This document shows, piece by piece, positions 12,807-64,000 of a stretch of 64,000 bases of DNA. Each line of letters starts with the position of its first letter. The first letter of the stretch is position 1. A program made the translations under genes and the position numbers. The notes under the pieces were generated by a model. It worked only from the letters and a program-made list of their open reading frames with translations, did not search any database and was not told the DNA's origin. The stretch covers positions 5,273,001 through 5,337,000 of the forward strand of contig NC_092570.1 of NCBI RefSeq assembly GCF_037975245.1, read 5' to 3'. The stretch comes from Apostichopus japonicus. Its lineage: Eukaryota; Echinodermata; Holothuroidea; Aspidochirotida; Stichopodidae.

Positions 12807-12906
12807 ATATTCACCCAGATAGCCTGATATTCTCATCTACGGTTTGCGCATGTGCAGTCCATGCATGGAACGACATGAATTATATTCCGTTTAAGTCATA
12901 GCTACA

Positions 12907-27500: not shown

Positions 27501-30402
27501 TGAAGATATAATTGGTTAGAGAGAAAATAAATCTTAAATGTACTCATGTTCCATCTCCAGATATGATGTATCTGAATTTTAGCAATGTGAGATTCCTATT
27601 AAAAGCATTATTATCTAAGACGGATAGTTAATTAGAAGATGTAGTTTGCTTTCCACATTAAGTCAGCTTATATAAACTGGTTCAGCAGACCACCAGTGAA
27701 AGTAAACAAAATGTATGAGCAGCATCCTCTCCAATTCCCTCTCTAGCTCATCCATCACCCCCCCCCCCCCACCCCCACCAAAATACCTGCACATCTATAT
27801 TTATGGAAATGAAGTAGATCACCTTAACAGGAAAAAAACAGTAAGCAACCTTGCAAACAACCCCTATAGGTATTACTCTACAAAAACCTCCAGGAGTGTA
27901 CTTTTGAAAATGTCTACTAGTAATTTTCTTAGCATTCTACAGTTTTAAGGCAATACCTTTGAACTTGAAGGTATTATCTATCTCTCTCAGTTTCTTTCTC
28001 TTTTTATTGTACTAGTTTCCTTGTGATAAATACAGAACAACATAAGTGCATTTCATCGTGTGAACTACCGATCGTCGAAGGCAGTATGGCCGAAAGGAGG
28101 CCACTGACCGTTCAGAAGAGGAGACGTATCTTGACTTCATTCTACAGGAATACCGTGGGATCCATCTTCTCTGTAATTCACAGTCCTGAAAGAAAAGGTA
28201 CTTCACTAGATGATAAGTCATTTTTCACTATGTGGGGTTTTTATTCTGTTTTGTGAATCTTTGTTGAAAGAGGGACTCATTTGGTTTTATGTTAGAATTA
28301 TACAATTTCAGCTAAGATAATTTTTGCACCTAATTAAATAAAGCATTCTACCATGTTTTAAGGTGCATATGTGTGCCGATACAATGTGTACCTGGTGGCT
28401 TTAATGTATGCAAACAATATGCAAGAGTAGGCCACGCCTGTCATCTCTACATTTACTCTGCTCTGCAAGGCTAAGCTTTGTATAAATTTCTGTTCATGCA
28501 TAACATTCTCCTAAAGGAAGTGGAATTTCTCTCCTAGTTTTGAACGTGCGAGTTGCAACTGCAGTTGAAGGTGGCATAGCTTCCTTGATAATGTCCAGTT
28601 CAGTCATATCTGCTAGTAGCCACAATAAGTGAAACTAAAAAGGATTGAAAGCTAAGCATAAAAAATAAATGTTTTAAATTTCAGAGGTTAATTGACTGAA
28701 AAACATGTGTAATCTACTCCTTCCCCTGCAAGGAGAGGAGGGGGTGGAGGGAGGGGGGGTGAGGGGAGATTGGGCCTCTACAAATCTGTGCTAAGTTTAA
28801 TCTGATAATTTTTGTCCATGGTGAATGACTGCAGTCTGCTCTGAATTGTTGACTGGTGTCATCAGTTGGATCACCGAGCCATATCGACTATATGCCCCAG
28901 TCTGCTCCTTTCGTATGGCTCAATGCTGTTGTTAAAAGTCCAGTCTGAAAAAATCCATGATTTAACAAGTCGAATGTAACCTAAAATTACCTTGTTTATT
29001 TGTTGCTATGTATAAATGGAATATTTGTCAGATGGAATGGCAGTATTAGACTAAACTTGGATATCATGCATGAGATTGTTCTTCCTATTTCAACGATTAC
29101 CTAATCATCTTTCTGGTCCCGATAACTCTGCATCTCGTCGTTTCTTCTTAACCAGACCCGTCGGGGGATCGACCGTCGACATTTCTCCACGTTGCAGAGG
29201 AAACGTACATGAACGCTCTGGATCATAAGTGCTTTGCAATCAACTCTAAGGATTTCAGATTATTTGCCATCTTCTCATCTGCTGTCCCCCATCATGCAGT
29301 CAGGTTAGAATTAAAAAATAACCTCACCTCACCCTACCAAGCCAACCCCTACCCTGACCCCCAACATACCCTACCCCTACCATTCCCTTCCACAACATAG
29401 TAACCCCTTTGCTTCTTTACATCTATTCGGTGGTCTTTTGAATAATTAAATTATTTACGATCGACTGAAAGTTTTATATACAGCATTATGTCATATGTAA
29501 AAAATATTGATTTGTGATTGCTGAATACTTCCAACTTCTGATGATGTATATAATGTGACATGCATTGGAAAGCAAAGAACCACCCCCCTCCCCCCTCTCC
29601 CCTGTCCTGCTCTTACTAATCTTAAAACCCTTGAAAAAGGAAGGGTTAAGGACACACAATGTTTTGTTATGCTATTGTAAACTTGATTTATATTTACCTT
29701 TTCCTTATAATAATAAAATAAATACCATATATTAAAGTGGTGTTATCATGAAATAAAACATGCTCAAGAGCACTGTACAAAAGAACCAATACCTGGAATA
29801 TAAAATTACCAAACTTAAGAAAACCTAAAAGTAATAACAACAGCAGTAAAAGTAAAACATGCTCAAGAGCACTGTACAAAAGAACCAAAACCTGGAATAT
29901 AAAAATACCAAACTTAAGAAAACCTAAAAGTAATAACAACAGCAGTAAAAGTAAAAACATGATATAAGACAGGGTTATAAACCACAATAAAGAACATAAA
30001 AATATAAATATACATAAAAATGGGCACAGTAATGTGAATAAAACAATTTTATTGTGAATAAGATTAATGCCCATACTCAAGCCTATAAAGATAAGTTTTC
30101 AAATGCTTCTTCCAGAGTTTAGGACCTGCTGCACTGAAAGAACAATCTCCATATGTGACTTTGTTAGTATGAGGAATGACTAGAGAAAGATGACTTTGGG
30201 ACCGTAATGCCCTAGCTGGCGTGTAGTGTTTCACCCTAGAATATGTAGCGTTTTATCCTTGATTATGTGATTGACTTACTGCCAGGAAATTTTGGGTTAT
30301 AAATTATTTTCCTGTTTGCTTTCCAGGTATGTCAGCCTTCAATTCTTGGAGAATTTAAAGAAGGATAAGGCCTTCACAGATCTTAGAGAGAAGAAGAGTT
30401 AG
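21521..30402 (+). CDS. FUZ: Fuzzy planar cell polarity protein (CPLANE subunit), 10 exons
   Basis: Exons: 21521-21598, 22801-22922, 23479-23563, 24103-24171, 24864-24968, 25854-26051, 27265-27467, 28016-28197, 29156-29303, 30327-30402 (TAG). All GT-AG junctions are in phase; the product is 421 aa against 418 in human. Diagnostic stretches are GVPLFSRSSG near the start, YGVQMFAQN, the FHDSI junction, LRNIERLRRDLR, then DIPVYLPHASPKVPHRL, and ILGFLLVINTEQHKC. FUZ has longin-like domains. With Intu and Wdpcp it forms the CPLANE complex, and INTU-FUZ acts as an exchange factor for Rab23 in ciliogenesis, Hedgehog signalling and planar polarity. That role is family knowledge, not read from the sequence. 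Intron 1 holds a MITE; ATTAAA at 30880-30885 may be the poly(A) signal. It is convergent with GK5. Confidence 0.95.
22008..22528. mobile_element. MITE-like element in FUZ intron 1
   Basis: The ends are inverted repeats: AGTATAGTCAGTATTG at 22008-22023 and its exact complement at 22513-22528. A GAAGTTCGGACAC block also recurs in inverted orientation just inside (near 22048 and 22470), with another direct copy near 22250. The 118-codon frame in its interior has no known motif and I do not regard it as a gene. TA flanks would fit a Tc1/mariner-type insertion, but that is weak evidence. Confidence 0.7.
25395..25800. repeat. Interspersed A-rich repeat in FUZ intron 5
   Basis: It begins with TAATAATAATAAG and AATATTTATATAGCGCATAATCAG, then GCTCAAAGCGCTTTACAAA, a phrase typical of dispersed repeats in marine invertebrates. 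It continues as A-rich sequence with near repeats of CCTAAA and AATAAATA. I cannot assign the class. Confidence 0.45.
29745..29960. repeat. 99-bp tandem duplication in FUZ intron 9
   Basis: The phrase TGCTCAAGAGCACTGTACAA occurs at 29761 and 29860, with about 99 bp repeated twice almost perfectly. It lies in a larger dispersed repeat that continues to about 30200 (phrases about a 'GCTGCACTGAAAGAAC' block). A pseudo-ORF rich in Leu on the minus strand results from the repeated codons. Confidence 0.85.
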
Positions 30403-34964: not shown

Positions 34965-37900
34965 TCAGGAACTCTCCGAGTACCAGTCCAACGATCGATC
35001 TACTGCTTTCTCCCAAGCTTTGATCGTTACCCTGTAGTCTTCTTTCAAAGATTCCGAGTGGAAAGTTGTATCGATTGTTCTCAAGTTCTTTATCTCTTCT
35101 CTGTCTTTCCAAATCCCTTTAAAAAAAATATTTAAAAAAAAGTAGACATGATAGGAATGTGAGTTGAGTATATCTGTCTAACTTTTCATCTATTGATTTG
35201 ATATGTGCAATATATAAACTGTGATACCATGACAACAGGTTTGGATTTGCAGACAACAAGACTTTGATGGATCTAACTCCTGTTCTTGTTCTCTGATATC
35301 TGTGGTGCAAGTGAAGGGCTTATTGTCTGGACCATATTATAACAATTTGCATATCAATAAGTAACAATGTTGCTCATTTGTTTCGAAGGTTTCTTTCTCT
35401 CTCTCTCTGTTCTCATGATCATTCAACTTGTTTGAAGTTAGCAGACAATTACATACCAACTGTTAATCCGGCCATGAATGCTGCCCCCAGACAGGACATT
35501 TGAAGATTTCTTGGTCTCTCGACTGGACATTCCAACAAACCTGATATGAGATTGCAGATGAAGCTATTTCTGCTCACTCCTCCATCAATGCTGTCAAGAA
35601 CAATAACGATAAAATCTGTGCTATCACCTGTAATGTAATTTGTTGTAAGTAGGTTGTAAAGTGTGGTTTTGCTTTTCACTCTTTGCTTCTACCAGTTCTA
35701 TGGTGCAGTGGATATTAAAGGGAGGTCCTGGTTCGATTCCCTGGTCGGAAAAAGTAACGTGGGTCTTTCATCCACAAGAATTTGGTGCTTTTTTTTACCA
35801 TCTTAAATGGTATTCAAAATTTTCAAAATCCAAAATGAGCTAAAGAACCTGTCAATTTAGATAGCCACCTGACATCAACTATTGTGACAAGCCATTCCAC
35901 TTCTCTCATGTGCACGAGTGGCTTCTTAGCTTATCAAACTATCTACCTTCGAGGCTGATTATTATTCTCAATATTGTTTAAACAGTGTTGTTGTTAAACA
36001 GATAACCAGTTGTAGATGGGTTAGACAGCATTTTTGTAGTTTTTTCAATGTTATTTTATGTGGTTCATGTATAATGATAATAATAATATTGAGGATTTAT
36101 AAAGCGCAGACATATCCACCTATAACGGTGCTCAAGGCCCATCACTACAATAATACCATGGTAACGATAACCTGTCAAACATAGAGCCAAATCCTCCTCT
36201 TGGCAGCAGCTAAACAGCGCCCAACTGACAGTTTTAACTCACAGGTCCCCATTTATACACCTGGGTGAAGAGAGGCAATGGAGATAAAGTGCCTTGCTCA
36301 AGGACACAACTTAATGATCTGGCCAGGAATCGAACCTGCAAGCTTTAGATCACATGTCCACCGACTGCCTTAACCACATGATGACAATGCACTAAACATA
36401 TATAACCCTACACTGTACTAACAGCTTGTTAGGATTCTCAGTGATAGTCAAAGTATACACTTCACTGCTGTGGCTAACTATAGAGGACATTTCTAAGAGG
36501 ACACAGCTTAAAGAGACATAACAAGGGGACATTTCTGATGTATTTTACTGCTGGTTTACTTCACTCACAGCTTCTATACATACTACACAGTAGCAGACTA
36601 ACCAGTACATTCTACTTTTGTGGTTTATCCTAATTGCTGAACTACGGTCCATGTGTATATACTACACTGTACCTATCGATCTACACGTAATTTTGTAAAT
36701 TAATCATAATCATAATCATAATAACTGTGGCTCGCACATCATAGATTTCTCAACGACAGTCAAAGCATACAATTTTTCTGTAATTATTTCTAACCACCTA
36801 AACTTTCATTTCCATCTCAACATTTAACCAGCTGCCGTAAATCACCAGACAGAACAAATATAAAAACTGATTGATAACCAAATCTGTCCTCTTGAACAGA
36901 AATGGCTCAGTAGGTGACGAACCAGAATAGCATGAGTGAGAGAGAGCACTGCAGGAGAAAAATTGTGCTCGGATACTTGAGACTACAGGTGCGAGTCCTT
37001 TATTTACTTCCTGAAGAGAATTAACCTGGGTTTGCTCGATGGATCTCAAGCAGGAACGGTAGCAGAAGGCTGCGATTACCTCCTCGGCTCTTCAAGGGGG
37101 CCACTCGGGAATACATGGTAGAATTGCAACATACCTAGCAACTATTAAAATGTGATGCTTCCATAAAGCCACATAATTCTAAATTCCACAATAGTTTCCT
37201 AAGAGTTTACCTTTTCATTTCTTTATTTAACGTTTACCATGTGACTCACCATATGATCTGTTTTACGACTGTGCGACACTTATCCAATCCAAGCTTGTGC
37301 AACTGAACGACCCTGCAAAGACATAATGACCAAATCTGACTAGTAGAGAGTTTATAATAACACACAGAAATGTCAAAACTGACTTAGAAATTATAAACAA
37401 GCTTGAAAAGAGCAATGAGATTTATGGCTAGAACAGGACACAAAACAAGTGACCTCATAGTTACAAGCCCTGCATTCTACCAAACTGAGCTATTCTCTGC
37501 TTGGAGCAGCAGCTAGGAGCAGAAACCACAGTACCTTGCGTTTCAAACTCAGTAAACCCACAAAAGAAGCAGGCATGGGATTTCATGAGAAAGTTCAAAC
37601 TTTTTATGTAATACATACATATAATTAAATGAACCACCTTACCCCTGACTGGGCAATTACAAACTTAAAAACAGCAAAAAGAAATTACAAGCTTGAACAA
37701 TTAAGCGACTTCCATATGCTTTATTTGTGCAAAGAAATTTTCATCCTTTAATATCATCCAAATAAAGAGGCATCATTAATAGCATCCAAATAAAGAGGCA
37801 TCTTTAATGACATCCAAATAAAGAGGCATCTTTAATAGCATCAAAAAGGGACATCTTAAATAGCATCCAAAAAAGAGGCGTCTTTAATAGCATCCAAATA

Positions 37901-40900
37901 AGAGGCATCTTTAATAGCATCCAAAAAAAGAGGCATGTCACCCATATAACACTGAAGCTATTATAGCTTATTACTAATCTGACCTGACAATTTCATTTTG
38001 CGCATGTGTGTGGTAGATAAATCACGGAATGGGTTATTAGCTCGACTCACCTAAAGGCAAGAGATTCTAACATACTTCTAACAATGTGACCTGGTTTTGT
38101 ATCCACTGTAACACCCAGAAGGGAGGCACAGGCCCCACCATTATTAATAGGACCCTGCGACAAAAAAAAAAGAAAACGAATGTTGGTATGCATAATTCAA
38201 ATCTGGATTTAAGATTTGACTATGTAAAATATTGCAAGAATCGAATAAAGTTGAAGTAGCAACTTTAGTGCAAAATTTTACAAGCCATCAGCAAATCTAC
38301 CAGTGTCATTGAAAATGAAAATTGAAAATGAAAAGAAAATCTGATAAAATCTGATCTTTAGGCTTATTAAACTATGGAAACATAACACACATATGTATTC
38401 CTTTACACAGAGCTGCAATATTTATATTCAAAGTGTTGACGTGCACCATGTTTGTAGAAAAACATTTGTATTCACCATTTTATTGACCATTGTTTTCTAT
38501 TATTGTATCACATCTATATGTTACAATTGGTTCAAGTTGAAGAAAAATAATATGTCATGACTATACTGGAATGAAAACAGTGATAATTCTGACTGTACAT
38601 CAATATCATGAAAATAGTCTAAGATGTTTCAGTGTTTGACGAATCAACAATGAACACCCTGATTCCCCCCTCTACCCCCACTATGAAGGTGGGGGTGATC
38701 ATGTGCAAGGATTCTCGAATATAAATTTAAACTTGATCTTTTAACGATGCCAGTTTTCTGTTTGCTACAAACATTCTCCTCCTTCGTGCCAAACCTCTCC
38801 TTCAAAACGAACCGGCTGATATAGCAGTAACTTCACAGAAAGCTGTGTCCACAAATTATGTCAAATATTTCACAACATGGTAATCAAATTCAAAGTGACA
38901 GAAGGCTATATGGAATTCCCTAAACTGATATGAAAATTTCACAGAGAACAAAGTCAAATCTTCTCACTTGAAGTCCTTGGAATGCAGGAACGAAACATAC
39001 ACCTCCACTGTTGGCTACTGATTCAGCTACGGGAGCACTCTGACTAGGATCATCGTAGAACCCTGAGGGATGAGAGGAATCAATAAATCAGGTCTTGTTT
39101 CCATCTTAATCAAAAAGATATTCTTCTTGGGGGGAGGGAAAGGGGGGTGGGAAAAGTGGGTGGCTTCACTTCTAATGATTGTTGTTGCAACCTCTTTACC
39201 AATATTCCCTCCAATCACAGCTTTATAATTTACCCATTTTCACTCCATTCAACCAGTGCTTATAGTTGCATTGCTACAATTCATGAGGTATGTAACCGCA
39301 CTGCCAATATTCACTCCAATCAAACCTCCATACTTACCCATTTCACTCCCCATTCAACCACAGTGCTTATATTTGCATTGCTACCTTACATGAGGTATGT
39401 AACCGCACTGCCAATATTCACTCCAATCAAATCTCCATACTCACCCCTTTTTCACTCCCCATTCAACCACAGTGCTTATATTTGCAATGCTACATTTCAT
39501 GAGGTATATAACCGCACTGCCAATATTCACTCCAATCAAACCTCCATACTTACCCATTTTCACTCCCCATTCGACCACAGTGCTTATATTCGCATTGCTA
39601 CATTACATGAGGTATATAACCGCACTGCCAATATTAACTCCAATCAAACCTCCATACTTACCCATTTTAACTCCCCATTCGACCACAGTGCTTATATTCG
39701 CATTGCTACATTACATGAGGTATATAACCGCACTGCCAATATTAACTCCAATCAAACCTCCATACTCACCCATTTTCACTCCCCATTCAACCACAGTGCC
39801 CGTATCTGCATCATTGCATTCCATGATATAGGTCATCTCATTACCAATTTGCCAGCCGACCAAAGGATATGCACCTTGACAGGAAGAGACGAATTCTTAC
39901 ATAATAGCTGGATCTTACATTCTTTGCTTCTGAAGTCGATCACAACAAAGATTGTTACATCTTTTGTGAATATGGTTGCCCGATCATGCAGTAATTATAG
40001 GTAACAGAGAGTAGCTGTAATCTAACTGTAACACAAAACTATTTGGAATAGCTAACACAACAATAGCTAACACGACAATAGCTAACATGACAATAGCTAA
40101 CATGACAAAAGCTAACACAACAATAGCTAACACAACAAAAGCTAACACAACAATAGCTAACACAACAATAGCAAACACAACAATAGCTAACATGACAAAC
40201 TAACAACATACATTGTTGCTGACATATCGAAAGTAGCTTAATATATATTGCAATGACATCACCAGCAACTTGGCACTTGAAATAAAGCTATTTCTTGATT
40301 TAACATAACTAAAGATGTTTATTTTCTGGGATAAACAGGAACAGTTTTCTTTGCAAACGGCATATGATTGTATTCATGAAAGACGTTCTCACATGAAATT
40401 AATAGAATGCCACCAGTCACTTTAAGTAGAGGCTTACAATAAATAAAACACAGTCACATCTTTGTACATTCTTTGGAATGGTCTACCTCAAAGTTTACTA
40501 ATGTAATTGCATATCCAAGAGATACTTCAAGCTCCTTAATACGGCTGCAAGCCATGCGAAAAGTCAGATGTCAACTAGTGCCAGGTATACAAAACTATAT
40601 AGATCCGTACAAGTACTTAAATAGTAGATCTCAGTCTGTTTATTCAGTCACGTTCTATTTATTGTACTAGGCGTATCATCCATGGGAAGCCAAACAGACA
40701 AATAATGTAGCACCTTGCTCATGCGATGACTTACCATCATACGGCACAGTTGGTCTTGGCCCTGTGTTTATTACTAGAAATGATCCAGTCCCCATGGTAA
40801 GCTTGATGTCACCCTCATTGAAACAGCATTGACCAAACATGGCAGCTTGTTGGTCAGCAATCTAGATATAAAAATGGAAAAAAAATGAAAATTGTCTTTA

Positions 40901-47700: not shown

Positions 47701-50700
47701 TTATGTGTAGATATGCTGTATAGCTAAACCAAGCAGAGATAAATATCATTTTATTCATGAGACTGGGCATGATAATAAAGTTCTAACTAGTGGACAGGAC
47801 ATTACAAGGCAAGTTATTATCATAAAAACTCCACTAATAAACATTGATTCATAGTCACTGTTATTGCTTTTCACCTAGTTCAAACAATTGTGGAGTTTCA
47901 TTAATCTGAGAGTGGTGTAATTGTCAATGAAAGAAAAACTGCTGTAACCTAGTTTGTCCTGTCCTCACCCTGAATGGCTTCTTTGATAGTGGTAACAAAC
48001 TGATTCCAGAGTACCTCTGGGATAATCTCAATAATCCCTTGTGATGGACAGTGAAGTTCTAGCTACAAGGAAAAGAGAAATAAAAGAAGGATCAAGCCTT
48101 TAAAGCGAAGAAGAAAATTACAATCCCAAATTGTGCAAATTTAATGAATATTTTCTACCCAAATTTTCTCTGTAAGTTGCTGTTGTTTTTTTTGTTTTTT
48201 TTTGGTTAGCATTTTAACCATCAATTTCAGAAAGATTTCTATATCAAGTTTTTAACTATTCAAAATTTAATGATGAATAACTGTAAAATGAATATGCAGT
48301 CAACTTAGTTACCATAGATTTTCAGTATTTAAGATATGCTGTGACCAGATTGAGGTCACTGCAGTTGTCTAAAAACTATTCATGACATAATGTTCAATGA
48401 AAGGACTAAGAAAAGTTAGCATCAATATTCTACATGCAGCCTGGGGTAATTTAGTGTTCATTCATACTTAGTAAAGATTCCTAAATCCTATTGGTCCATT
48501 CAGGTCAGCTGACCGTGGTTAATCCTGTGAGTAACGCATGGTAAAATTACGGCACATCACTTTAATAAATCTTTGGTTATATGTAACCAACAAGAGCATC
48601 AATGATGCAGTATCTCAATACTGGAAGTTTTAATTTTGATTCCTAATTTCAAATCTTTGCTCTGTCTCTACAATTATCAATATCAATCACGGTACAACAA
48701 ATACATAACTTGCATTTTTGCTACTTTGCCACGAATAGTCTCTGCAGGTTACACTTTATCCTGCTAGTCTTGCCTTTAGCGCTCATTGCCTGTTAGTCGA
48801 AACAACGACGTTGCAAGGTTTAGTAATGTCATAGAATACCTAAGAACTTGTTTTTTATGTGGTATCCTTCATCTTAGGTCAGTCTCTGTTGGACTTTTTG
48901 GTCATATAGTTTGACGTCAATGACAACAGCCAAATTAGAAGAGGCGAACAACTCGACCATATTCTTGATGCCTGCCCTTGAGAGCTAGGCCTATTGACCT
49001 ACTGTATGTTACTGTAGTGGTGACTACCATCAAAACTGTGTCCACTTCTAGATATCAAAACAACCCACGTTTTTCCATCTCAATTTTTTGGACATGAAGA
49101 TTTCATGGATTTATGACTTGGAAACAAATAATGTAAAGGAAGATTACAAGTTTTTATATGCAAGTGATGGGTGGCCTCCTCTTCCCCTAATAGCCACCTC
49201 AGTTCCTCTCCATTTTGTTATTTTATTTTAATTCTTTGTACATTTGATGTCAAACATTACAGGTTCAAAAGAAAGCTAAACATACTTCATATAACCTTAT
49301 ACATCTTATATCCTTATAAATAAAACATAACCTTATACAATTTTTATAGTCTTATAAAAGTTGTGATGCTATGGCCGGCTCCTCTTTTATACGTACCCAT
49401 CAAACAAACTTACCCTGGTCCTTCCTAGGAAAAGCTGTCTGAACACCAGTACAATGCTAATGTGGCTATCACTGAAAGCCTAATAGGACTAGGCCTAGGG
49501 GCCTAGGCCTATATATATATTTTTTTTAAATGCACTAGGCCTACAGTAAGTAGCCTTCAGAAATACAAGAATGTGTATACGTATATAATTATACAAAATA
49601 CATGAAGGGCAATCAAACAAACTTATCATGGCCCTTGCTCTGAAAAGCTACCTGAACACCAGTACTATCCTTAAATGGATCTTAAAAAACGAAGGCCTAA
49701 TATAAATTAAATGCACTACGTAGAATTCAGCAGTACAGAATGTAATTAGCATGCAATACACTAACACCTCGCGTACCTAACTACACTACAGAAATTGGTC
49801 GCGAGCGTAGCCATTTTCGTATATCTAACATGTAGCTGTTATGAGTCATAGCCAATCTGCTACAAAACAGACTTGGGGCGGGGCTTAATCATCAAAAACG
49901 GACCTTTTTACTAATAGTAGGGGCGGCAGCTCAGTGTTGTTTTAAGAAAGAAAAATCATTTAAACATCAAATAAAGCAAATAAAAGCCATAAAATGTCAT
50001 ATACAGCTAGTAAAATTCTTATTAATACCTACCTGTAAACAACAAATGAAAGTTTAAAATGTTAATAAAATATATAATACATAGGACCCTATCTTAGACG
50101 ATACCACTGTTGAAAGACAGTTCTATTCTATTCTCTTTCATAAAACATAAGTTTTGGAGCGTGTGCAAAACAGGTCTGCCAAAGTGTGTTTTCAGTCCAA
50201 ATTGGCCCGATTTGGACATAAATCGGTGAAAAAATCACAGAATGAGATACAATTCTGGAATAAAAAACAGTAACTTTTGTTGGTCTATATGATATATTCT
50301 TGCTCTGGAAATTCCAGAGAAAAAGAACTTTGTTTGAAGACGCTGAAAATTTTTTAAGAGAAGAGAGAGTCCCACTTACTGTTACAATATCTCTATACAT
50401 GTAATGTATTGAGATAAAAATGTTTTGTTTTATGATTTTTCCCCCACACAAATGGTAGTAATGCTATCGCTGGATGCACTCGGGCTCCGCCCTCGTGCAT
50501 CGCTTGCATTATCCCCTGATAGTGCATTAATCCTGTGAGTAACGCACGCTAGACCGTTGATTAACCCCTTATTCAAATTTTTGTGAAGGCTATGACTTTT
50601 TTCTCTCAATCGGTGCTATAGTGTAGAAAATTGCTATCTTTGCACTTGTATAGCAAATTGACCTTTTTCTATTTCATTATGCGATACGATACTGGATAAA

Positions 50701-51153
50701 TTATTCCCTGAGATGTATGTAAGAAAGCAGAGAGCTTCCCAACAAATATAATGTACAATTCATAATTTGCCAATTTACCAACAAACTTTCAAAGGAATAA
50801 ATCCAAGCGATTATTAACACCTGTTTTAAAGTCAGTTGCATTGAGAGCCATTTCCTACCTGGGCAAATATAACATCACCGGTCCTCCTTTTTGCACTGTT
50901 CATACATCCCACCTTCCTCCTGGCCTCCTCCATTTTTTTTTCCCAGGCCTTAAAATTGACCCAGGACTGTACCACCCCCCCCCCCCCCCGCCCCACCCTA
51001 AGCCAACCCATTCTCTTCAGATCTGTTTTAAGTACTTACTGCTTGGTCACTTTGACCAACCACTTCTGCCTTTGTGTTGTAAACATGAGCCCTGATGGTT
51101 GTTGTACCGACATCAATGGACAGAATGTATTTCTCTTGTTCAGTGGCAGTCAT
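34965..51153 (-). CDS. GK5: Putative glycerol kinase 5 (FGGY carbohydrate kinase family), 17 exons
   Basis: Exons in gene order: 51153-51040, 48062-47969, 46765-46696, 46103-46010, 45758-45666, 44245-44204, 43550-43475, 42852-42791, 42347-42274, 41331-41271, 40861-40735, 39874-39770, 39062-38968, 38154-38051, 37312-37250, 35590-35457, 35116-34965 (TGA). Every junction is GT-AG and phases agree; the product is 519 aa (human GK5 is 529). The N-terminal phosphate loop is [12 protein letters not shown]. Further FGGY landmarks are [43 protein letters not shown] (about 262-271), LTMGTGSF (about 281-288), and near the C-terminus IDGGVSRN and [12 protein letters not shown]. The family phosphorylates glycerol with ATP; the substrate of GK5 proteins is less well established. 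Exon 6 is a 42-nt microexon. Intron sequence next to exons 5 and 12 contains tandem copies of those exon ends. It is divergent from PSMD1. Confidence 0.95.
35693..35840 (+). mobile_element. tRNA-like SINE head fragment
   Basis: TCTATGGTGCAGTGGATATTA followed by a perfect B-box GGTTCGATTCC about 15 bases later looks like the promoter region of a tRNA-derived SINE. The rest of a cloverleaf cannot be folded convincingly, so I do not call a tRNA gene. It lies in a GK5 intron, antisense to the gene. Confidence 0.5.
36075..36395 (-). mobile_element. tRNA-derived SINE (family 1), near full length, minus strand
   Basis: On the minus strand it runs from a tRNA-like head (CATGTGGTTAAGGCAGTCGG, GGTTCGATTCCTGGCC) through the shared body to a tail of AATCCTCAATATTATTATTA. 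The same order is present in the plus-strand copy at 46909-47275. It lies in the last-but-one intron region of GK5. Confidence 0.85.
37745..37940. repeat. About 28-bp minisatellite, 7-8 copies
   Basis: The unit CATCCAAATAAAGAGGCATC followed by TTTAATAG repeats tandemly with small indels. It lies in a GK5 intron. There are no regular unique spacers, so it is not CRISPR-like. Confidence 0.9.
39190..39769 (-). repeat. 108-bp minisatellite built from GK5 exon 12 and its 5' splice site
   Basis: Five tandem copies lie directly downstream (in gene direction) of GK5 exon 12. The phrase CAGTGC recurs at 39254, 39361, 39470, 39578, 39686 and then inside the true exon at 39794, giving periods of 107-109. 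Each unit contains a diverged copy of the last 60-odd bases of exon 12 followed by a donor: GTAAGTATGG or GTGAGTATGG, with only the most distal copy degraded to GTAAAT. In the exon's frame some copies carry a stop (ATG TAA) and at least one does not. Confidence 0.92.
40041..40200. repeat. 15-bp minisatellite, about 10 copies
   Basis: The unit AACAATAGCTAACAC, with ACATG and ACACG variants, repeats tandemly in the GK5 intron between exons 11 and 12, only 170 bp from exon 12. Because the unit is a multiple of three it gives a Val/Ile/Ala-rich pseudo-frame on the minus strand. Confidence 0.92.
41470..41690. repeat. A+T low-complexity tract
   Basis: About 220 bp composed almost only of A and T (AAATAAATAAAAA with ATATATAT blocks) in the GK5 intron between exons 9 and 10. 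It is simple sequence. Confidence 0.9.
43057..43295 (+). mobile_element. tRNA-derived SINE (family 2)
   Basis: The head GGAGTTAGCTCAGTGGTTAA (A-box) and GGTTTGAGTCACTC (B-box-like) sits about 50 bases apart as in a tRNA promoter. It is followed by an unrelated body and a tail of ATACTTACATACATACAC. The head resembles a tRNA but lacks a closable acceptor stem. It lies antisense in a GK5 intron. Confidence 0.72.
44688..44726. repeat. CA/TA microsatellite
   Basis: ACACACACAC followed by TATATATATATA in a GK5 intron. Simple sequence only. Confidence 0.85.
45574..45688 (-). repeat. 57-bp tandem duplication spanning the end of GK5 exon 5
   Basis: The phrase AAATGGTAGG occurs at 45574 and 45631, and ACATGCTGACTTGT at 45607 and 45664, both 57 bp apart. 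The copy nearer the gene contains the true last 23 bases of exon 5 and its donor GTAAGT; the other copy repeats those bases with a weaker donor GTAGGT. Confidence 0.88.
46909..47275 (+). mobile_element. tRNA-derived SINE (family 1) with duplicated head
   Basis: Two tRNA-like heads lie in tandem: GTGGTCAAGTGGTTAAG at 46911 and again at 46981, each with a B-box-like GGTTCGAGTCCTGGCC or GGTTCCAGTCCTGGCC. After the second head comes the shared SINE body and the AATCCTCATTATTA tail. It lies antisense in the GK5 intron between exons 2 and 3. Confidence 0.88.
48063..51039 (-). other. GK5 intron 1, repeat-bearing
   Basis: The largest GK5 intron, about 3 kb. It contains a phrase TTAATCCTGTGAGTAACGCA twice (about 48520 and 50527), a GATGCAC-CGGGC/GCCC-GTGCATC imperfect palindrome at about 50472-50500 and a C run at 50974-50989. 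I see no gene nested in it. Confidence 0.6.
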
Positions 51154-53309
51154 GATTGCTTCAATTATTATACGTCCCTCATATAGTTGGTATCATTGTT
51201 GCATGTCTTATCATCAATTATACATAATTCTGCAGAGTATGGGAGGAAAACATAATGTACTGTTTATGTTCAGCGTGGCCAGATTGACTTATAAGAAGTA
51301 GTAGCCATATCTATGTGGCAGATATTGCAGTAGCATGCAGTCTTTGGTACACATGAAATGAAATTAAGCTCAGTAATAACACCTGATGTAACCAGTGCAT
51401 TTCATTTTCCAACTTGATGACGTCAGGGAGGAACAACTCAATCGAGCAGTAGCGCTCTCCGTACAAATGCTGTGCTAAAGCACAGTCAGTAAACAGCAAT
51501 TTCATTCGAAAAACAAAAACGACATAAATCAAAAATACATGTTCAATGGTAGGGCCGCAGCCTTATGATTATGATCTGATATAATCACAGCAGAGGAATT
51601 ACAGGCAAGGGAAAACATAGAGTAAACAGGGAAGAAGATGATCTACGGAGACCTACGGAGGTGGAGTGTGTTTGTAGCCACAATGAGTGGATAACTTGGC
51701 GAAGCTACTTTCATCCCCAGAAGCCTGTTTAACATCCTAAAACAGACTTTGAAACCATTTGCCAAAATAGAGCACTACTAAGAGCTACCTAAGTGATGAT
51801 GAACGACATCCGTGGCCACGCAAGGAACATTCAATTTTAATTGGATATGAAGTAAGCCTAATTCTGGGAAGGCATGTTGCATGCTTTTAAGGTAACAGTC
51901 AGCCTACATTGTTACTGTTACTTTAGCGTACACTAGGCTTAGCGTCAGTGTGCTCGTTGAGCATAGCCTTTTAACAGAAAATTAAAGAAAAGAGAAGTCT
52001 TGATTTTTCGTAACTATGACCTTCAGGTGCCTCGTTAATATTTTAAACTGCGTTGGGCTTATAGGAAATTGCGAGGCCTTCTAAAGTTCTAGCCCTAGCA
52101 ACAACAGCTGAATATTTTCCACGGGGAGTGAAAAAGACTTGTTACAAGAGTTGTTCCTCTCTGACGTCATCAAGATGGAATTTCAGGCATATTGCATAAC
52201 TAATGGCAGCTTACTGTGCATTTTGGTCAGGCCTTAGGAGCCAATTTTCAAAGCGAGCTTATTCAGTCCAACAGGAAGCTGTTAACTTAAAAATCTAATA
52301 TTAGATAGTTTTGAGGTTACTGAATAATATAAATGTCTTTGATCCCTGCATTCATTATTCCTTTATGCCTCCCAAGTCCCAGTTTCCAGTTCACACCCCT
52401 TAGAACACAGGTTGGATAGCTGATGCTAGCCTTGGGCATTTGCTTAACTCAATCAAGTTTGTCCTTTGAATGCTACATGATCTAGCCTACTCCCTAGTTC
52501 TGGTAACTTCTGGGGCTGGATAACTTTTTGATAAAAGTCACCCAGGAAAGAACTGATCTGCTCTCAACTCCAGTCCCCTTGCATCGAGACTGTGTGATCA
52601 TCGTCAGGTGTGTAACAGGATTCCCCTAGAAGGAGAATATAGTGCTACACATGATCATGACCAAAACGCCGAGAAGTGATACAGCATGTAGCGTTTGAAA
52701 CCTAAGTTAGATTTAACTGAGGCAGCCTAGACTGAGGTTAATGTTGTAGTGTTGACTTACGACACGAAGGCTAGGCCTATTGTCTGCTAGGCCTAAAGCC
52801 TATTGTCAAGGATATTCTAGCTTCGGAGGTGAATTATCTTTGCTATTGTCAACTCAAAGACTGCTGATAACCAAATGCTTTCGACCACAGAAGTCAGATG
52901 ACTTTTGTATTGAATCTTCTATTGTTTTAAGCCTCTAATACCTATTGTCTTCTATTCTAATGGCTCTTGTTTTCGGCATTCGTAACGTAAATGGCTAATT
53001 TTTGATAAATCTTTGGTAAACTAAAACTTACAAAAGTATGTCCGTCTGTAAATGTGTTGACCAAAACTACCGAAGTAGGGTGCCAGGTAGTACAGTACGT
53101 CGGATGACTTGGTGGTGCGACTGTTGTGGAGTAGTGGCGCACTTCCATTTTATAAATGATTGAAATACACATATATTCGCATGTGAGTCTTCTGTTCGTT
53201 CGAGACTAAAAAAAGAAACTCGTTGTAGACAACAAAACAGTTCTATGAAACAAGACCGGCGAATTACTCTATCAATCATTTAAATATAGTGTAATAGATC
53301 TTAAAGAAA
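51154..53309. promoter_or_regulatory. Divergent intergenic region between GK5 and PSMD1
   Basis: The two genes are transcribed away from each other across 2.16 kb. Two perfect cAMP-response-element palindromes TGACGTCA lie at 51418-51425 and 52162-52169, each embedded in one arm of a 31-bp inverted repeat (51409-51439 and 52148-52178, two mismatches). No coding exon is evident. Whether these sites act in transcription, or are ends of a transposon, cannot be told from sequence alone. Confidence 0.55.
51409..52178. repeat. Inverted-repeat pair, possible MITE, carrying CRE sites
   Basis: The 31-bp arms are complementary at 29 positions and enclose about 700 bp without coding potential. They could be subterminal repeats of a DNA element; no target duplication was readable. 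Confidence 0.6.
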
Positions 53310-56300
53310 ATGAAGATCACCTCAGCTGGTAAGATTTCCCTATTATCATCAAATATCATGATAATTACCCTGTTTAACGTTAATCCAATGTTATTTCGCG
53401 TAACTTGTGAACCTTGTACTGTCTGCACTTCACCTTTCGCTGAATCACTGTGATAGCCTAACGTTTACTTCGTATGTTGTATTCATACCTAATGTTATAA
53501 CGTTTCATACCTTTCTCTGTAATGTTGAAAAAGTGTTTATCAAGTTCAGCCTCTTCCTTAAGTTAGAATCTAGGCATATAGCCTAATTCCCCTTTGTAAA
53601 GGACTTTTCTATGTAGGCCTATGAAAGGTAAAAGAAGTGGAAGGGACCTGGCATATCGCAGACCTAAACCCATATCATCTTCACATGAACACAAACACTA
53701 GGCCTACAGAAACCATCTGAATCTGAATTGGTTAAGTCTGCAAAAATCCTACTAGAGGACATAAATGCCAACAGAGGCATAACATGGCATAACATATCAC
53801 TACGCCAGAGTTAGATTTGGTCTAAAATAACGGCTATGGGCTCAAATTTAGGCGGTATGAGTGAATTTTAGAGGCCTAGACTATTGTTTCTCTAGAGTAA
53901 GTGGTTATGATTAGCTAATTATATTAATCCTATTTATTATTAAACCGGTCTCTTTAACCAATATCGCTAAGCCCTCTCATCCCCATGCAGTGTGTAATGT
54001 TTTCCTTGACCTAGGAATAGTATAGTCAAGGGCCTATTATGACGGGGTAAGAATTATAACACGCTCTCGGAAATTCCACGATTTTGCCATAGCAATGAAA
54101 AGTGAGCCAAACTTGAAGTGTGCTGACAAGTCTCCCAATATGATTTTGTGTTCAAAGTCAAATAATGAAAGAAAAGCTATGTTTAAATCCTCACTTTCAA
54201 GTTGCTTATGTTGTGTTAGATAAGTTATATCAGCTAAATTGTTATTTGTTTGTGTTGAATGCAAAGAATGCAAACTATATCTCCAATTATTCTTCTTAGA
54301 ACCTGCTTATTGTAATTGTTGCATTAAAACAAAGGATATTATTTTAACTTGACACAAGTTTGAAGTTATCAAAATTGATATCAGATGCATACAATGGGCA
54401 CATTGTTAACATGTATTGCAAAAGCTAGATATGTCTAAATTAAAAGAAATTTCTTAATTGCATCATTACTTGGACCCATCATGCTTCAGTTGAGATAGAG
54501 ACTTCTGGTTAACTGATTCAAACTTAGACCTGAGTATTAAATATTTATATGGCTTTTATCCATATCAGTGTTTCCTTTAATTTTGGTACATTTCTGTCTT
54601 TTTCCTTCTTTTGTCAGGTGGTGTTATCTCTATGCTGGATGAGCCAGACATCCAGTTGAAGGTAAGTTGTTCATCTCAGTTGCAACACCAATTTCATAAG
54701 AGAAGCAGGGATTTTGTGTAAAGTTTCAGATTAAATTTCAAGTTAAATGTTACATCTCAAAAGAACCTTCTAAGAAGTAAATAACCATGAACTTTGAATA
54801 ACTTGTACACAATAGAGCTTGATTTTTGGCTCAGTACATTTTTCTAGGTTCATCCATTGTCCAGACAACTATGTAGACTAATTAGGACCCTTTATTATAG
54901 ACTAAGCTGACAAAGCTACTCTCATGTTGGAGCCCAAGTTATAACAAAGAGTTCGCATTCTTGCATTTAAGTGTTACTTTCAACATAATAAGCTGTATTT
55001 CATTGACTTGAATGCCTCTGGAAGAGGGAAAATATTTTAGCTTTGGTCTCCTGAAGTATCCTACATGAACTGCAAAGCAGTGTGCCTAAGTCTATGTTTC
55101 AGTCATGAGCTTTTGCCTGCGAAACACAGATTTCCTTTGTTCTTTTTATTTCTTTTTTGTCCGCATTTTTTTCTTACATATGTGTTTGTGTTTCCAGACT
55201 TTTGCAAATTTTCACACATCTGTGTAAAAGAATAACATGAAACATCATTTCACCTACTTGAGAAAATAATTTCATCAGTGAGAATATCGTTAGTGTCGGT
55301 ATATGGATGTACTGAGAATTTTATAACATATCAATATATATATATCTTCATGCATATTAAAATATTGCAGCCAACTCCCAAAACGAACATTCGCGCAGCT
55401 AGTACAAGCCTGCACAAAAGATGAAATTTGTTGGCACAGCCCTTAGTATGTAATGCATTGTCCATCATGTGTATGGTCTTGTCGATATTTGCACGTAGCG
55501 GCCTAGACAGCTCATTGTGCCATCACTAACCCTGCAATACATTTTCAGAGTATTTTCGTAGAAGTCAGGCTCATGGCTGATGTTATATACGATTATATGT
55601 CAGGTGTTTTAGAGTACCTTGCTCAAGAGGTAATCATGAAGTAGTATTATCTTGCCTATTGCACATCGTGGATGTATTCTATGCATGCTTGTTCCTCCCT
55701 CAGCTGTTTTTTTTATTTTATTTCTTATAATTCATCAAATATGTGTAATGTACCAATGTTCTCTCATTTTCTTCTCCCTACCATCAGGCGTATGCCTTGG
55801 AGAAACTTAATGTTCTGGTCGATGACTTTTGGGCAGAGATTGCAGACACTGTGGAAAAAATGTATGAAAATTTTCTCCATTGACAGTGTGATCCTAGGAA
55901 TTACTTCACAGTTACTGTAAACATTATTTGCTAGACCTCCAATAAAGCACCTCCATCTGTCATTGTGAAATTTAGTTTATATCAAACTGTACTTGACTTG
56001 AGCAATCAGCAGAGTGGTTTTGTGTGAATTATAATAGTTATAATAATTATAGTTGTCATCATCATTATTATTACTTTCAAGTTAATTTAGGCAGCAAGTG
56101 TTGTACCCGTAGACTGTGTATTTTACTTTGCACGTTGCAAATTCAGCAAGTCCTTCTTACCACACCGTAGGGTAATATGCGGTCTGGTAACTTTGTACAG
56201 TAATGCAAGTTAACATTAGATAACAGTACATAGTATAATGTAGTTTAATACAATGTATTGTTAGGATTTGTAATGAAATGTAATGTCACATAATGACAAT

Positions 56301-59300
56301 GCGAAATTTCAAGCAAATAGGGAAGATGACCTAAGAAGAAAGAAAAAAATCATTTCTGAAGTTCCTCTTCACTAATACATTATTGCTACTATATGCAGGG
56401 ACAAATATATATAACAAAAAAATATTTTTGCCAATACTCTACCTCTCATTGCTATCATGTTCTAATTAGTAATTATCAGACATTTGCATGTCTTAGTACA
56501 TTAGTCTCAAGTCTAAGGTATACCCATGTGGAAAATGAACTTATTATTAAAGTATAAAAAGTGTAGCACAGAGATTGTAGAAAAGTGGTGTTGGGGGGGG
56601 GGGGGGGGAGGGGGTGGAGCCTGTAAAATCAAGGACCTTGAATTTACCACAATATAACATACTGTACTTTAAATTGTAATGTACATACTACTACTTACTG
56701 TTGCTTTTCTTAATCCTACAGTGAAATGATGTATGAAGATGAAAAGTTTGAACAGAGAGAAATAGCTGCCTTGGTCGCCTCTAAGGTGTACTATCACTTG
56801 GGAGCCTTTGAAGAGTCTGTAGCGTATGCTCTAGGTGCAGGGAGTCTATTCGACGTCAACAGTAAATCGGAATACGTCTCAACTATTATAGGTAAGTCTG
56901 CATGGTAGCAAAGTGTCGGACGTCCCATCATCACGACTGTTGGTTTCATATCTTGCGTAATATATCTCTTTATCAATGCCCCCGAAATTCAGGCTATTTG
57001 CTGGCTTAAATGTAAATGGAATTAACCGTTTGCTATTGAAGGGGGGGGGAGGCACTTGTGTTTCTCGGCCAGCAAACATTAAATAATTACAGCAGTTAAA
57101 TAATTACATGATTTCCATATCAAACAAAAGCCCAGTATTACAACTTATTTATCAGTAATATTACTGGGTTGCTCCCATAAGAAAATGGAACAACTGATGT
57201 GTGCAGGAAAATGAAAAAGGTGGGAATTTATTTTGAGATTTTAGCTAAATTTTTGAAATTCTGGGCCTGTTGGTCTTTAAGATTCCTCTCCTTAGAGGTT
57301 AACATGAACACTAATGATTGGTTCGTCTTTTCCTTCGTATCCAGCCAAATGTATCGACCAATACACGAAACTCAAGGTGCACAACTACGAGCACCAAGAT
57401 GAACCCAAAGAGATTGACCCAAGGTTAGAGGCTGTTGTGAATAGGATGTTCAAGAGATGCTTTGACGACAAGAAATTCAAGCAAGCCGTCGGTATCGCCT
57501 TGGAAACCAGACGCCTGGATGTTTTCAAGGAAGCTATCCTCAAGTCTGCTGATATTCCTACTATGCTTTCATACAGTGTGAAAGTTGTGATGTCACTTCT
57601 ACAGGAGAGACAGTTTGGGAATACGGTAAGTCAAACAACCAACTATCTGTTTTGTTTCATACCTGTTATTGCTAGTTATAAACAAGCCGCTTGGTTGCGG
57701 GCAATAATTTTAGTGTTGACGTTTTGTGTGGCAGTTTTCAGGCGTATGAATAATATTTCTCATAAAATAAACTACTGAACTTTAACAGTATACTTCAGTG
57801 TACAAAAAGTGCTACATGTATATATTTTCATTGGTGTAGTATTACGCTAATAGCATTTTTGCTTGATGCAAATACCCTTTTTACAATGACATAGCATCCA
57901 GCAGTAAAATTATGATGCTATGATGTCATGACCATAAGGCCCAGTCACATCTCACCGGATTGCACGAACGGACAAGAGTACGCACGAAAAACAGTTATCC
58001 GGTTATTTCCGTTGGCAAAATTTGTCGCGCATGCATCTGGGGGTTGCAACGTACCGGACGTTCAACGGTGAAAACGGATTACAAACGTACAAGGGACGGA
58101 CAGCAACGGACGAACAACGGATGAACAACGGAATAACAACGAACGAACTAACGAACACCAACGGATAGTAACGAATTTACAACGGACAATTAACGGATAA
58201 AGAACATACAAAACGTAGGAGTACCGGAAAAGTAACGGACATACCGGACTAGCAACGGAGAAGTAACGGTCTAAAACCTTGGCCTCCGGAGTGCCTCAAA
58301 ATCAGGGGGCATCCTCATGAAATTGATGAAAGATTTTGGTCTTCCATTCGCAGCTCCTGCATTAGTTTATCATAAAGACCACCCTGCCGTCTTCTCTGTG
58401 AACCTAACAAGGCCCTAGACCAGCATTTAAGCCGAGCACGTCTCTTCCTTCTCTTCTTGACTTGTTCATTGGTCTTGATGTTGGCTTCAATGATAAGCAT
58501 CTGTGCTTGTAGCTGACACTGTGGTCTAAAGCTTGAAACTTTCTGAAGGGTCCATGCATGATGTAGGTGTTGACGGTAGAGGTAATGGGAGCAGAATGAG
58601 GCGTGGGACGCTTGGAGTGGACAAGGTGGAGGAGGTACGCTGCATCTCCGTTCTATGTCCGTCTGTTATACTTTCCTAGCCTGAGTTCTTCCGTTTCTTC
58701 CGTGTAACGTCCGTTACCTATTCGTTCATTGTCAGTTCTATTCCTTTACACTTCCGTTATTTCTACGTTAGCGTCCGTCGAATATACGGTATAGGTACTG
58801 TACTTCTACGTTTCATCCGTTCTTTGTCCGTTCATGATCCGGTGAGCAATAGCAATAACCAGAGACGAACGGAGAAATACAGTATGCCAAACGCATACAG
58901 AACGAACAAAACGCATGAGAAACTGATAAAACGGAAGCTTAACGGATTAGTAACGAATAAATAACGGAGACATTTTTCGGTGGATGTCCGTTCCAAGTTT
59001 TATGCATGTTCAAAATCGACACCGGACAAACCGGACCCTCCCGGTAATGAAACGTAGATGGACGGAGGAGAACCGCATACTAAACGGATACTAACGTACA
59101 TCAACGGAGAGCCATTTTTTGTCTTCGTTCCCTCTCCGTTATTGCAATCCGGTGAAATGTGACTGGGCTTTTACTTTGGTAGTGTGGCATTTCTCTATCA
59201 TGGTATTGTATGCAGTGTTTTACCATAGTGACGTTACAAACCTACTTTGGTAGTTTTTGAATTTCTCAATCAAGGTATCATATGCAGAAGCCTGAGACAT

Positions 59301-62300
59301 TTCTCATTATCTATTTTCAAAACGATTCCATTTTCTTGTTCATACCAGGTGTTGGGCGTACTGGTGGACTTGTACATGAACCTGGCTGTCCCTGACTACA
59401 TTAACATTTGTCAGTGTCTGATATTCAGAGATGACCCTCAAGCTGTGGCTGATATTCTAGATAAACTCATTAAGGAAGGAGGGGTAAGACTCTTACTTGT
59501 GTTTCCAAGGAAAGCAATAATCCACTCATCGTTATCAGCCAGTGTGATACTAGTGACGAACAAACTTTTTGAACAGCTAACAAAAAGACTGATTTGATTT
59601 GAGCAATATCTCAGTTTCAATGTTCCTTTCACCTCCTTGTTGCACTAATGATATCATAGATTGACAAAAAGGAACCTCCTGACACAACTTGAGAACCAAC
59701 GGCATGTCCCAACTGGAAGAAGATTTTGCTTGGATATTTGGGTTCCAGTTGTTTTTCACCAAATTCTTAATTATATTAGCTACCTGTGATAATTGGGTTT
59801 GCTTCACCTTAGACATGTGACTCATATTCATGAGATAAATAATTTCTCAGATATGATTATAACTTTCTTTTTTTTTTCTTGAAAACTTAACTTTTATACT
59901 TTGTCCTTAAGTTAACTGTTTGATCAACCAATCCACTCCACAGATTCTGTAGATTAAATTTTGTTTAATTCTCAGTCAACATTTAGGTTTCCTTCTTCAG
60001 ATTTGGTCTGAACAAAGTTCTACTTATTGTTTTAAACCAAATTGAAAGGGAAATAAGGCAAGATGTATCACATGTATCTTGTAATGACAAATTATGGATG
60101 ATTCTCTTTCCCAGCATGATATTATATATGTTGAGTAATGAAACGTTAAAATTGATGAGGAATAAAAAATGGAGATAAATATTTTATAAAATATTGGTGG
60201 AAGTGATATAAATAAAAAATAAAAATATTCCTCTGAAAAGGATAGAAATACCATAAAATTGTGACAGCTATTTTCTCAAAATCTGTGTTAGGAAGGGAAA
60301 GCAACATCATTTTTTCTTTCTTCTTCAGGAGCCAGCCCTGATGGCCTTTCAGATTGGTTTTGATCTCTACGAGTCAGCGACACAGAAGTTTTTGGCCAGG
60401 ATTCAAGGCTCTCTGAAACCAGTTGGAGCCGAAGCAGAGACGCCCACAGAAACAAAAACTGAGTAAGAGATATGTCAGCTTAGATTAGATTCGTGGAATG
60501 GCGTCCAGGCATTTCATTATCAGTGTAGCGTAGATTGTGGAAATTAAATTAAAATGTGAATTATATTATGTAGTAAGAAAAGAATAATGGTTCTGCCTCC
60601 TCTTACTCCATGAGCATTCCTTTAGGAGAATGATTTGAGATTTAAGTCATATGCCATCCATTAAATTGACCTTCAAGAAGTCTTGCTTATTAATCTTATT
60701 TTGTTTATATTTTCTCCTTTATCTTCCTTTTATTTCAACTATACTATGTATTTCTAGGGTTCCATAATACATGGAAACAGTATTGTATTATTGTCTGTCT
60801 ATACAGTCCAATTACAATGCAGAAACAGTAATGTATTCTTTCCTGTATTTTGGGAACTTAATGACCAAAGGAACAGTTCACCATTCATAGTTCTTTATCT
60901 CCGGGGTTACATAAGACTCGTAAACAATGTTGTTCCTCTCTCTCTATCTTTCCCGTCAGACTCAGAAAGCAATAAGAGAAACAATTCATATTCTTTTTCT
61001 CTCTCGCTCCTGGAACCCAGAAAACGTTTAAACAATCAAATCTTTTTCTTTATCTTTAGGGACAGCATTAGTATAGGGAGTAATGTATTTTCTTTCACTA
61101 ACTCTAATTAATATGTATCAACAAAGCTGTATTCTTGCTCTCTCTTTCTTTAGGGATCAAGAAGAGTCAGAATCGAAAGCAGAGACTCCATCAGAAGATA
61201 AAGACGGAGAAGAAACCAAACCAGAACCTAGTACAGTTGTAGAGGTCGCTTCAACTGCACAAAAATAAAATATAAAAATAAAAAATTTATATATATAATA
61301 AAAAATATAAAAAAAAACGATTCAGGAATATTTTGAGTTAGAGATGGAGGGTAGGATACAAAGAGTTTGTTGTTGTTATATGTTCTATAGCAGTTTTGTT
61401 GCTATAGTTAAATTTAAACATATTCGTTTACTTAAGTCAATTGTTGACACGGAATTGATTTGACGGGTACCCAGTGCCCAAGCCATGTGGTGCAATACTA
61501 AAGAAGATGACCCTATTCCTGTGACAAAAACGATAAAGTGAAAGAATAATGCTCAGACAGTGATACATGCTCATTTTCCATCTGTTATGTACAAATATCC
61601 TTTGCCTAAGTATGGGCCCTAGATACAGACTACCCATTGTGTAGTTATTTCCTGCCCCCCCCCCCCATCCTATAAGATGTAATTTGCTACCACATTTATA
61701 GGGTTTTGAAATCCTCTACGAGGCTCTACGAAGAGTCAGAAACGAAAGCAGAGACTCCATCAGAAGATAAAGACGGAGAAGAAACCAAACCAGAACCTAG
61801 TACAGTTGTAGAGGTCACTTCAACTGCACAAAAATAAATACAAAAATAAAATATAAAAATAAAAAATTTATATATATAATAAAAAATATAAAAAAAAACG
61901 ATTCAGGAGTATAATATTTTGAGTTAGAGATGGAGGGTAGGATACAAAGAGTTTGTTGTTGTTATATGTTCTATAGCAGTTTTGTTGCTATAGTTAAATT
62001 TAAACATATTCGTTTACTTAAGTCAATTGTTGACACGGAATTGATTTGACGGGTACCCAGTGCCCAAGCCATGTGCTGCAATACTAATTAAGATGACCCT
62101 ATTCCTGTGACAAAAACAATAAAGTGAAAGAGATAATGCTCAGACAGTAATACATGCTCATTTTCCATCTGTTATGTACAAATATCCTTTGCCCAAGTAT
62201 AGGCCCTAGATACAAACTACCCATTGTATAGTTATTTCCTTCCCCCCCCCCCCCCCATTCTAAAAGATGCCATTTGCAACCACGTTTAAAAGGGTTTTGA

Positions 62301-63755: not shown

Positions 63756-64000
63756 GTTCGTTTTATTCTCCTTTTTACACATCTCGTTTCAGTCACGATT
63801 GTTTTTTCGTAGTATATCTTAGTAGTGGAGTATTTCGTGGTTGAAATGGTGACAAAATGCTGAATGTGTCAAAGTGTCATAATGTGAACTACATTCTGAA
63901 ACATTGTGTTAATGTCACATCATAGTTCTGCCATTAAAGGTTTTTTGTTTTGCTATATGGATTATTTGGTTTAATAATTGTGAAAAGAAAAAACAATGGA
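63756..64000 (+). other. PSMD1 intron running off the window
   Basis: Follows the exon 10 donor GTTCGT. A+T-rich with no feature that I can name; the next PSMD1 exon is beyond the end. Confidence 0.7.

Follow-up and report, generated by a model that had tools for sequence, protein, structure and literature searches.

A 108-bp minisatellite directly follows a 105-bp exon of the GK5 gene of Apostichopus japonicus, and by alignment, register and window search its repeat unit is a copy of that whole exon, the copies being fused end to start without introns. The array is likely to be a decayed and re-amplified tandem duplication of the exon, which lies within a GK5 intron, would be spliced out from the first of six donors and is tolerated as a relic.

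The GK5 locus and its intronic array

GK5 lies on the minus strand of the 64-kb window (the whole stretch of DNA that was analysed), where its exons were located by tblastn with a partial human GK5 protein as the query (Table 1). The exon that adjoins the array, referred to here as the live exon, is in phase 1 at both ends, with CCTGTCAAG directly before it and the first donor, GTGAGT, directly after it. In phmmer searches, the partial GK5 translation matched 30 distinct PDB sequences at E <= 0.001, all of them glycerol kinases save one xylulokinase. Pfam scans of three minus-strand frames at about 35-50 kb and one plus-strand frame at 50-64 kb placed FGGY_C in another GK5 exon only, and the three minus-strand frames gave no domain at the live exon. 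The plus strand from 50001 to 63999 carries exons of the gene for the 26S proteasome subunit RPN2 (PSMD1), with a Pfam match to RPN2_N at E 8.6e-14.

The 671.6-Mb genome holds one GK5 locus, as judged from nine scored candidates: the GK5 query gave seven matches among them, all inside the window, comprising four exons and the array units u1, u2 and u3. These three units were matched by the exon protein over the full exon at 52-56% identity. The array DNA itself matches once in the genome (671,581,487 bases in 35 contigs). Distant blastn of 39190-39900 found no match in phage records, and the GK5 protein, searched against the viral contigs of IMG/VR, gave 19 pattern matches, of which 0 were confirmed. 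In the same assembly, a second contig with pieces of COX1 (G000:C29, 31219 bases) is about twice as long as the 16099-base mitochondrial contig (C35) and is perhaps a concatemer. The genes of C35 translate better when AAA is taken as Asn (table 9) instead of Lys, which is the echinoderm usage.

The array was detected by TRF at 39199-39799 with a period of 108 bp, 5.6 copies, 92% matches and a score of 974, and its first unit begins exactly at the end of the live exon (39770, minus strand), which confirms the initial annotation of a tandem array with a 108-bp unit immediately downstream of a GK5 exon. Its head-to-tail units fall within the tens to about a hundred bases that define a minisatellite. 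Neighbouring units resemble each other closely, with u1 and u2 nearly identical and with 102/108 for u2-u3, 100/107 for u3-u4 and 97/103 for u4-u5, and the partial u6 is identical to the unit consensus at 34 of 45 positions.

Other repeats were seen in the window. TRF found a tandem array with a 15-bp unit (AATAGCTAACACAAC, 9.7 copies, 92% matches) at 40047-40192, within the intron that directly precedes the live exon, a 28-bp array of 7.0 copies at 37746-37936, in the GK5 intron that follows exon 38157-38050, and a 99-bp unit in 2.1 copies with 97% matches at 29754-29961, apparently a young duplication. By eye, the stretches 957-1200 and 12528-12832 are similar to each other, with translations that have PGGARAP and PGYAP-like peptides in common, and are perhaps copies of one interspersed repeat.

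Table 1. Positions of the GK5 exons and of the array units in the window
Feature	Position	Strand	Basis and remarks
GK5 exon	~43514-43458	-	tblastn
GK5 exon	~42853-42788	-	tblastn
GK5 exon	~41333-41265	-	tblastn
GK5 exon	~40861-40760	-	tblastn
Live GK5 exon	39770..39874	-	105 bp; tblastn ~39875-39771, E 1.37e-07; boundaries read; PDB glycerol kinases
u1, dead whole-exon copy, 108 bp	39662..39769	-	begins with the exon's true donor GTGAGT; in-frame TAA at 39713-39711
u2, dead copy, 108 bp	39554..39661	-	begins GTAAGT; 106/108 identical to u1
u3, dead copy, 109 bp	39445..39553	-	begins GTAAGT; AAA replaces TAA
u4, dead copy, 107 bp	39338..39444	-	begins GTGAGT
u5, dead copy, 104 bp	39234..39337	-	begins GTAAGT; two 2-nt deletions
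u6, older incomplete copy, covering the exon's first half	39185..39233	-	weak donor GTAAAT; far end approximate
Next GK5 exon	38968..39062	-	tblastn from ~39057 onward; acceptor CCCTCAG; PDB match; far end read by eye
GK5 exon	~38157-38050	-	tblastn
GK5 exon	~35586-35455	-	tblastn
GK5 exon	~35117-34971	-	tblastn

Donor sites and reading frame

At each seam of the array the exon end, AAAATGG, runs directly into the exon start, which reads GTGCATAT in the live exon and GTRAGTAT in the copies, and the seam resembles a 5′ splice site; in global alignments of u1-u5, the seam donor aligns with that exon start. Six such donors follow one another on the minus strand, with the +1 G at 39769, 39661, 39553, 39444, 39337 and 39233, and read in that order TGG/GTGAGT, TGG/GTAAGT, TGG/GTAAGT, GGG/GTGAGT, TGG/GTAAGT and TGG/GTAAAT. 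The initial annotation stated that nearly all copies keep a good donor, which describes five of the six seams (GTRAGT) but not that of u6, the oldest copy, which is weak. It also held that several of these donors are stronger than the true one, and the outcome differs with the measure. The three later GTAAGT sites match seven of the nine letters of CAGGTAAGT, compared with six of nine for the first donor. When scored with a human frequency matrix, set against an AT-rich background and ranking GTGAGT and GTAAGT differently as that background is varied, the donors gave in order 5.27, 4.68, 4.68, 6.62, 4.68 and 0.11, so that the site at 39444 stands above the first donor, the GTAAGT sites stand slightly below it and the last site is far below.

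The later donors lie at +108, +216, +325, +432 and +536 from the first. The first seam is in frame. The unit was previously described as a multiple of three; the copies are 108, 108, 109, 107 and 104 bp long, and two of the five later donors also shift the frame further on. The TAA of u1 is read in frame with every later donor (5/5) and the open frame ends there, so use of any of them would add at most 19 residues and then a stop. Longer proteins are therefore excluded on this allele, and the suggestion that the array is a source of length variants does not survive.

The translation obtained with the first donor matches the glycerol kinase 2dpn, the best PDB match, without a gap over 168 residues across the junction (residues 33-200 vs 216-383). 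Because this alignment is ungapped and all later donors meet the TAA of u1, we infer that productive splicing uses the first donor, which bears out the earlier view of six donors in a row of which the first is needed for the normal protein. A 3-residue gap in the second PDB alignment and a 2-residue gap in the third lie near the junction, so the length of the family leaves the exon end unfixed to the residue.

Selection on the block formed by the exon end and the donor is unsupported, because 9 of its 30 columns vary among u1-u5, compared with 10 of 80 elsewhere, and the good state of the donors in u1-u5 can be attributed to recent amplification, as seen in the near-identity of u1 and u2. Together with the degraded donor of u6, these observations also leave the array without the support it would need as a splicing buffer, the other role proposed for it. 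Regulated unproductive splicing, in which later donors would be used at a set rate to give premature-stop mRNAs that tune the level of GK5, with copy number setting the rate, is unlikely: five good donors do compete, and according to one study (PMC5585400) the donor that is taken among neighbours is set by their strength and by SRSF1 and hnRNP A1, yet the donor-end block shows no excess conservation and the oldest copy has a weakened donor. The seams, which read ...ATGG/GTRAG or GGGG/GTGAG, contain no intron and no AG acceptor before any copy, and the units were ruled out as cassette or mutually exclusive exons on that ground.

Whole-exon origin of the unit

Global alignment pairs each of u1-u5 with all 105 bases of the exon, interrupted by one 3-nt gap, where the unit has a codon more, and in u3-u5 by small indels close to the unit ends; the unit length is thus the exon length plus one codon. 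Earlier, the unit had been read as the last 60-odd exon bases followed by about 40 bp of intron, which is wrong according to the alignment and to register tests and a window search. As background, the register tests used 15940 overlapping window segments from both strands, with GC of 25-60% and the array zone excluded. Exon positions 9-42, held in fixed register against unit positions 12-45, match at 19-20 of 34 positions in u1-u5, with a null mean of 8.6, and at least 19 matches occurred in 2 and at least 20 in 0 of the 15940 segments. When the null was given the best of 13 registers, these counts rose to 29 and 5. The same exon stretch reaches 20/34 in the expected register and 16 in the best other one, and a circular scan of exon 9-75 round the unit gave 40/67 in the expected register and 26 at the next best of 108 offsets (mean 18.0, s.d. 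4.2). Finally, a search of the whole 64-kb window, both strands, with the first 75 nt of the exon at E <= 1 returned only the exon itself and u1-u5, the units with E-values of 0.008 to 0.44 each.

Local alignment of the first 42 exon bases to u1-u5 gave unremarkable scores of 12-16, equalled by 9242 to 1429 of the 15940 segments, so the whole-exon signal lies in register and length and not in one strong block. There are 11 sites at which the partial u6 and the unit consensus disagree, and at every one of them the exon sides with one or the other (with u6 at 7, with the consensus at 4), an agreement also reached by 58/15940 background segments. Over 45 columns, the exon matches u6 or the consensus at 33, compared with a background maximum of 30. 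Local alignment to the exon stands out for u6 alone, with a score of 26, which 2/15940 segments reach. Unless a 1-nt gap is allowed, u6 is out of register and matches at 10/34, as 5512/15940 segments do.

It is quite unlikely that tandem amplification took in the exon end with its donor and some 40 bp of genuine intron, and that the intron half resembles the exon start by chance. Such slippage of the exon end plus 48 bp of intron would yield an array that starts in the exon and ends, as u6 does, about 48 bp past a seam, and it would fit a near-identity to the exon that is limited to the last 30 nt. However, the supposed intron half lies in the register set by the period in both scans, the first 75 nt of the exon find nothing besides themselves and the units in the window, all 11 informative sites of u6 and the consensus fit the exon, and the unit length equals that of the exon plus one codon. 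The end-to-end alignment and the register tests instead find copies homologous to the whole exon, as in tandem exon duplication.

The five units contain 5 in-frame stops in the exon frame, compared with 18 and 15 in the remaining frames, a scarcity that reflects a memory of coding origin. Mismatches between exon and unit number 11, 8 and 11 by codon position, with no excess at the third, and this evenness gives no sign of coding constraint since the duplication. That the units were once translated as a 36-residue protein repeat and were dropped from the mRNA after the stop arose would agree with the nearly stop-free exon frame and the in-frame first seam, but is highly unlikely given this evenness and the absence of an insertion at the junction in the best PDB alignment.

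Two probable ages, known systems and the live exon

Between the exon and the unit consensus there are 30/75 mismatches in the first 75 nt and 0/30 in the last 30 nt (Fisher 6.5e-6; best breakpoint, 0/2000 permutations), so that near-identity to the exon end is confined to the last 30 nt and does not cover the 60-odd bases first noted. That these 30 nt are identical suggests that the live exon and the dead copies recently exchanged sequence in register. The end of the exon looks native because its VVEW resembles the glycerol kinases aligned there in PDB, and the exchange thus probably ran from exon to array.

In the whole-exon duplication that is preferred here, the first duplication would have taken place between two similar stretches one exon length apart, the exon start noted above and the donor GTGAGTAT. 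The copies would then have drifted without coding constraint and acquired the stop, and a later in-register unequal crossover or gene conversion would have fused the live exon's end with a drifted copy. Amplification of this hybrid unit would have produced u1-u5, with u6 persisting as an old copy at the edge. The spliceosome would take the first donor and remove the array with an intron of 707 bp, and any slip to a later donor would give an mRNA with a stop in u1, presumably cleared by nonsense-mediated decay. As splicing from the first donor would remove the array and slips would meet a stop, the array is most likely a tolerated relic without a function of its own; it looks like something for splicing to ignore, not a device.

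The repeat unit of the human gene IFI6 is short (12 bp), whereas that of the GK5 array is a whole exon. Both are minisatellites at an exon-intron junction in which each unit is a possible donor, and in GK5 the array abuts the exon and carries donor consensus sites at its seams, five GTRAGT and one GTAAAT. The IFI6 minisatellite is reported to supply multiple splice donors, and according to PMC4526556 two downstream repeat units serve as donors to give three mRNA species and different isoforms; in the GK5 array, by contrast, none of the five later donors gives a longer in-frame protein and all read the stop. Tandem exon duplication, in which whole-exon copies lie beside the exon in the same gene, is a known kind of change (PMC9013439). 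The GK5 copies likewise adjoin their exon in the same gene, but they are fused without introns or acceptors, unlike the duplications described there, and therefore cannot serve as exons in their own right or as mutually exclusive ones. In intron gain by tandem duplication (PMC4974935), the donor is taken from duplicated exon sequence. The GK5 array shares with it a tandem duplication across an exon boundary and a donor that may come from formerly exonic sequence; there a new intron arises, whereas in GK5 the exon copies probably enlarged an intron that was already present. The GK5 array combines these known kinds, as an intronless whole-exon minisatellite in which the donors are the seams and every later donor runs into a stop. 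Among the papers listed for GK5 and tandem repeats, titles and abstract beginnings suggested no report of the array.

A more tentative reading, possible but held with less confidence, counts the live exon as the first unit of the minisatellite and has it evolving in concert with the other units. Its last 10 codons and donor would be kept like those of the dead copies by in-register exchange, and the exchanged tract would be bounded just after the drifted, stop-bearing stretch because longer tracts kill the protein. If true, this would be an intronic repeat able to rewrite coding sequence, with selection setting the boundary. The array offers a natural test of donor choice, with six almost equivalent 5′ splice sites spaced at about 108 nt and a protein from the first only, and if the exchange reading holds, the end of a coding exon evolves together with its own dead intronic copies.
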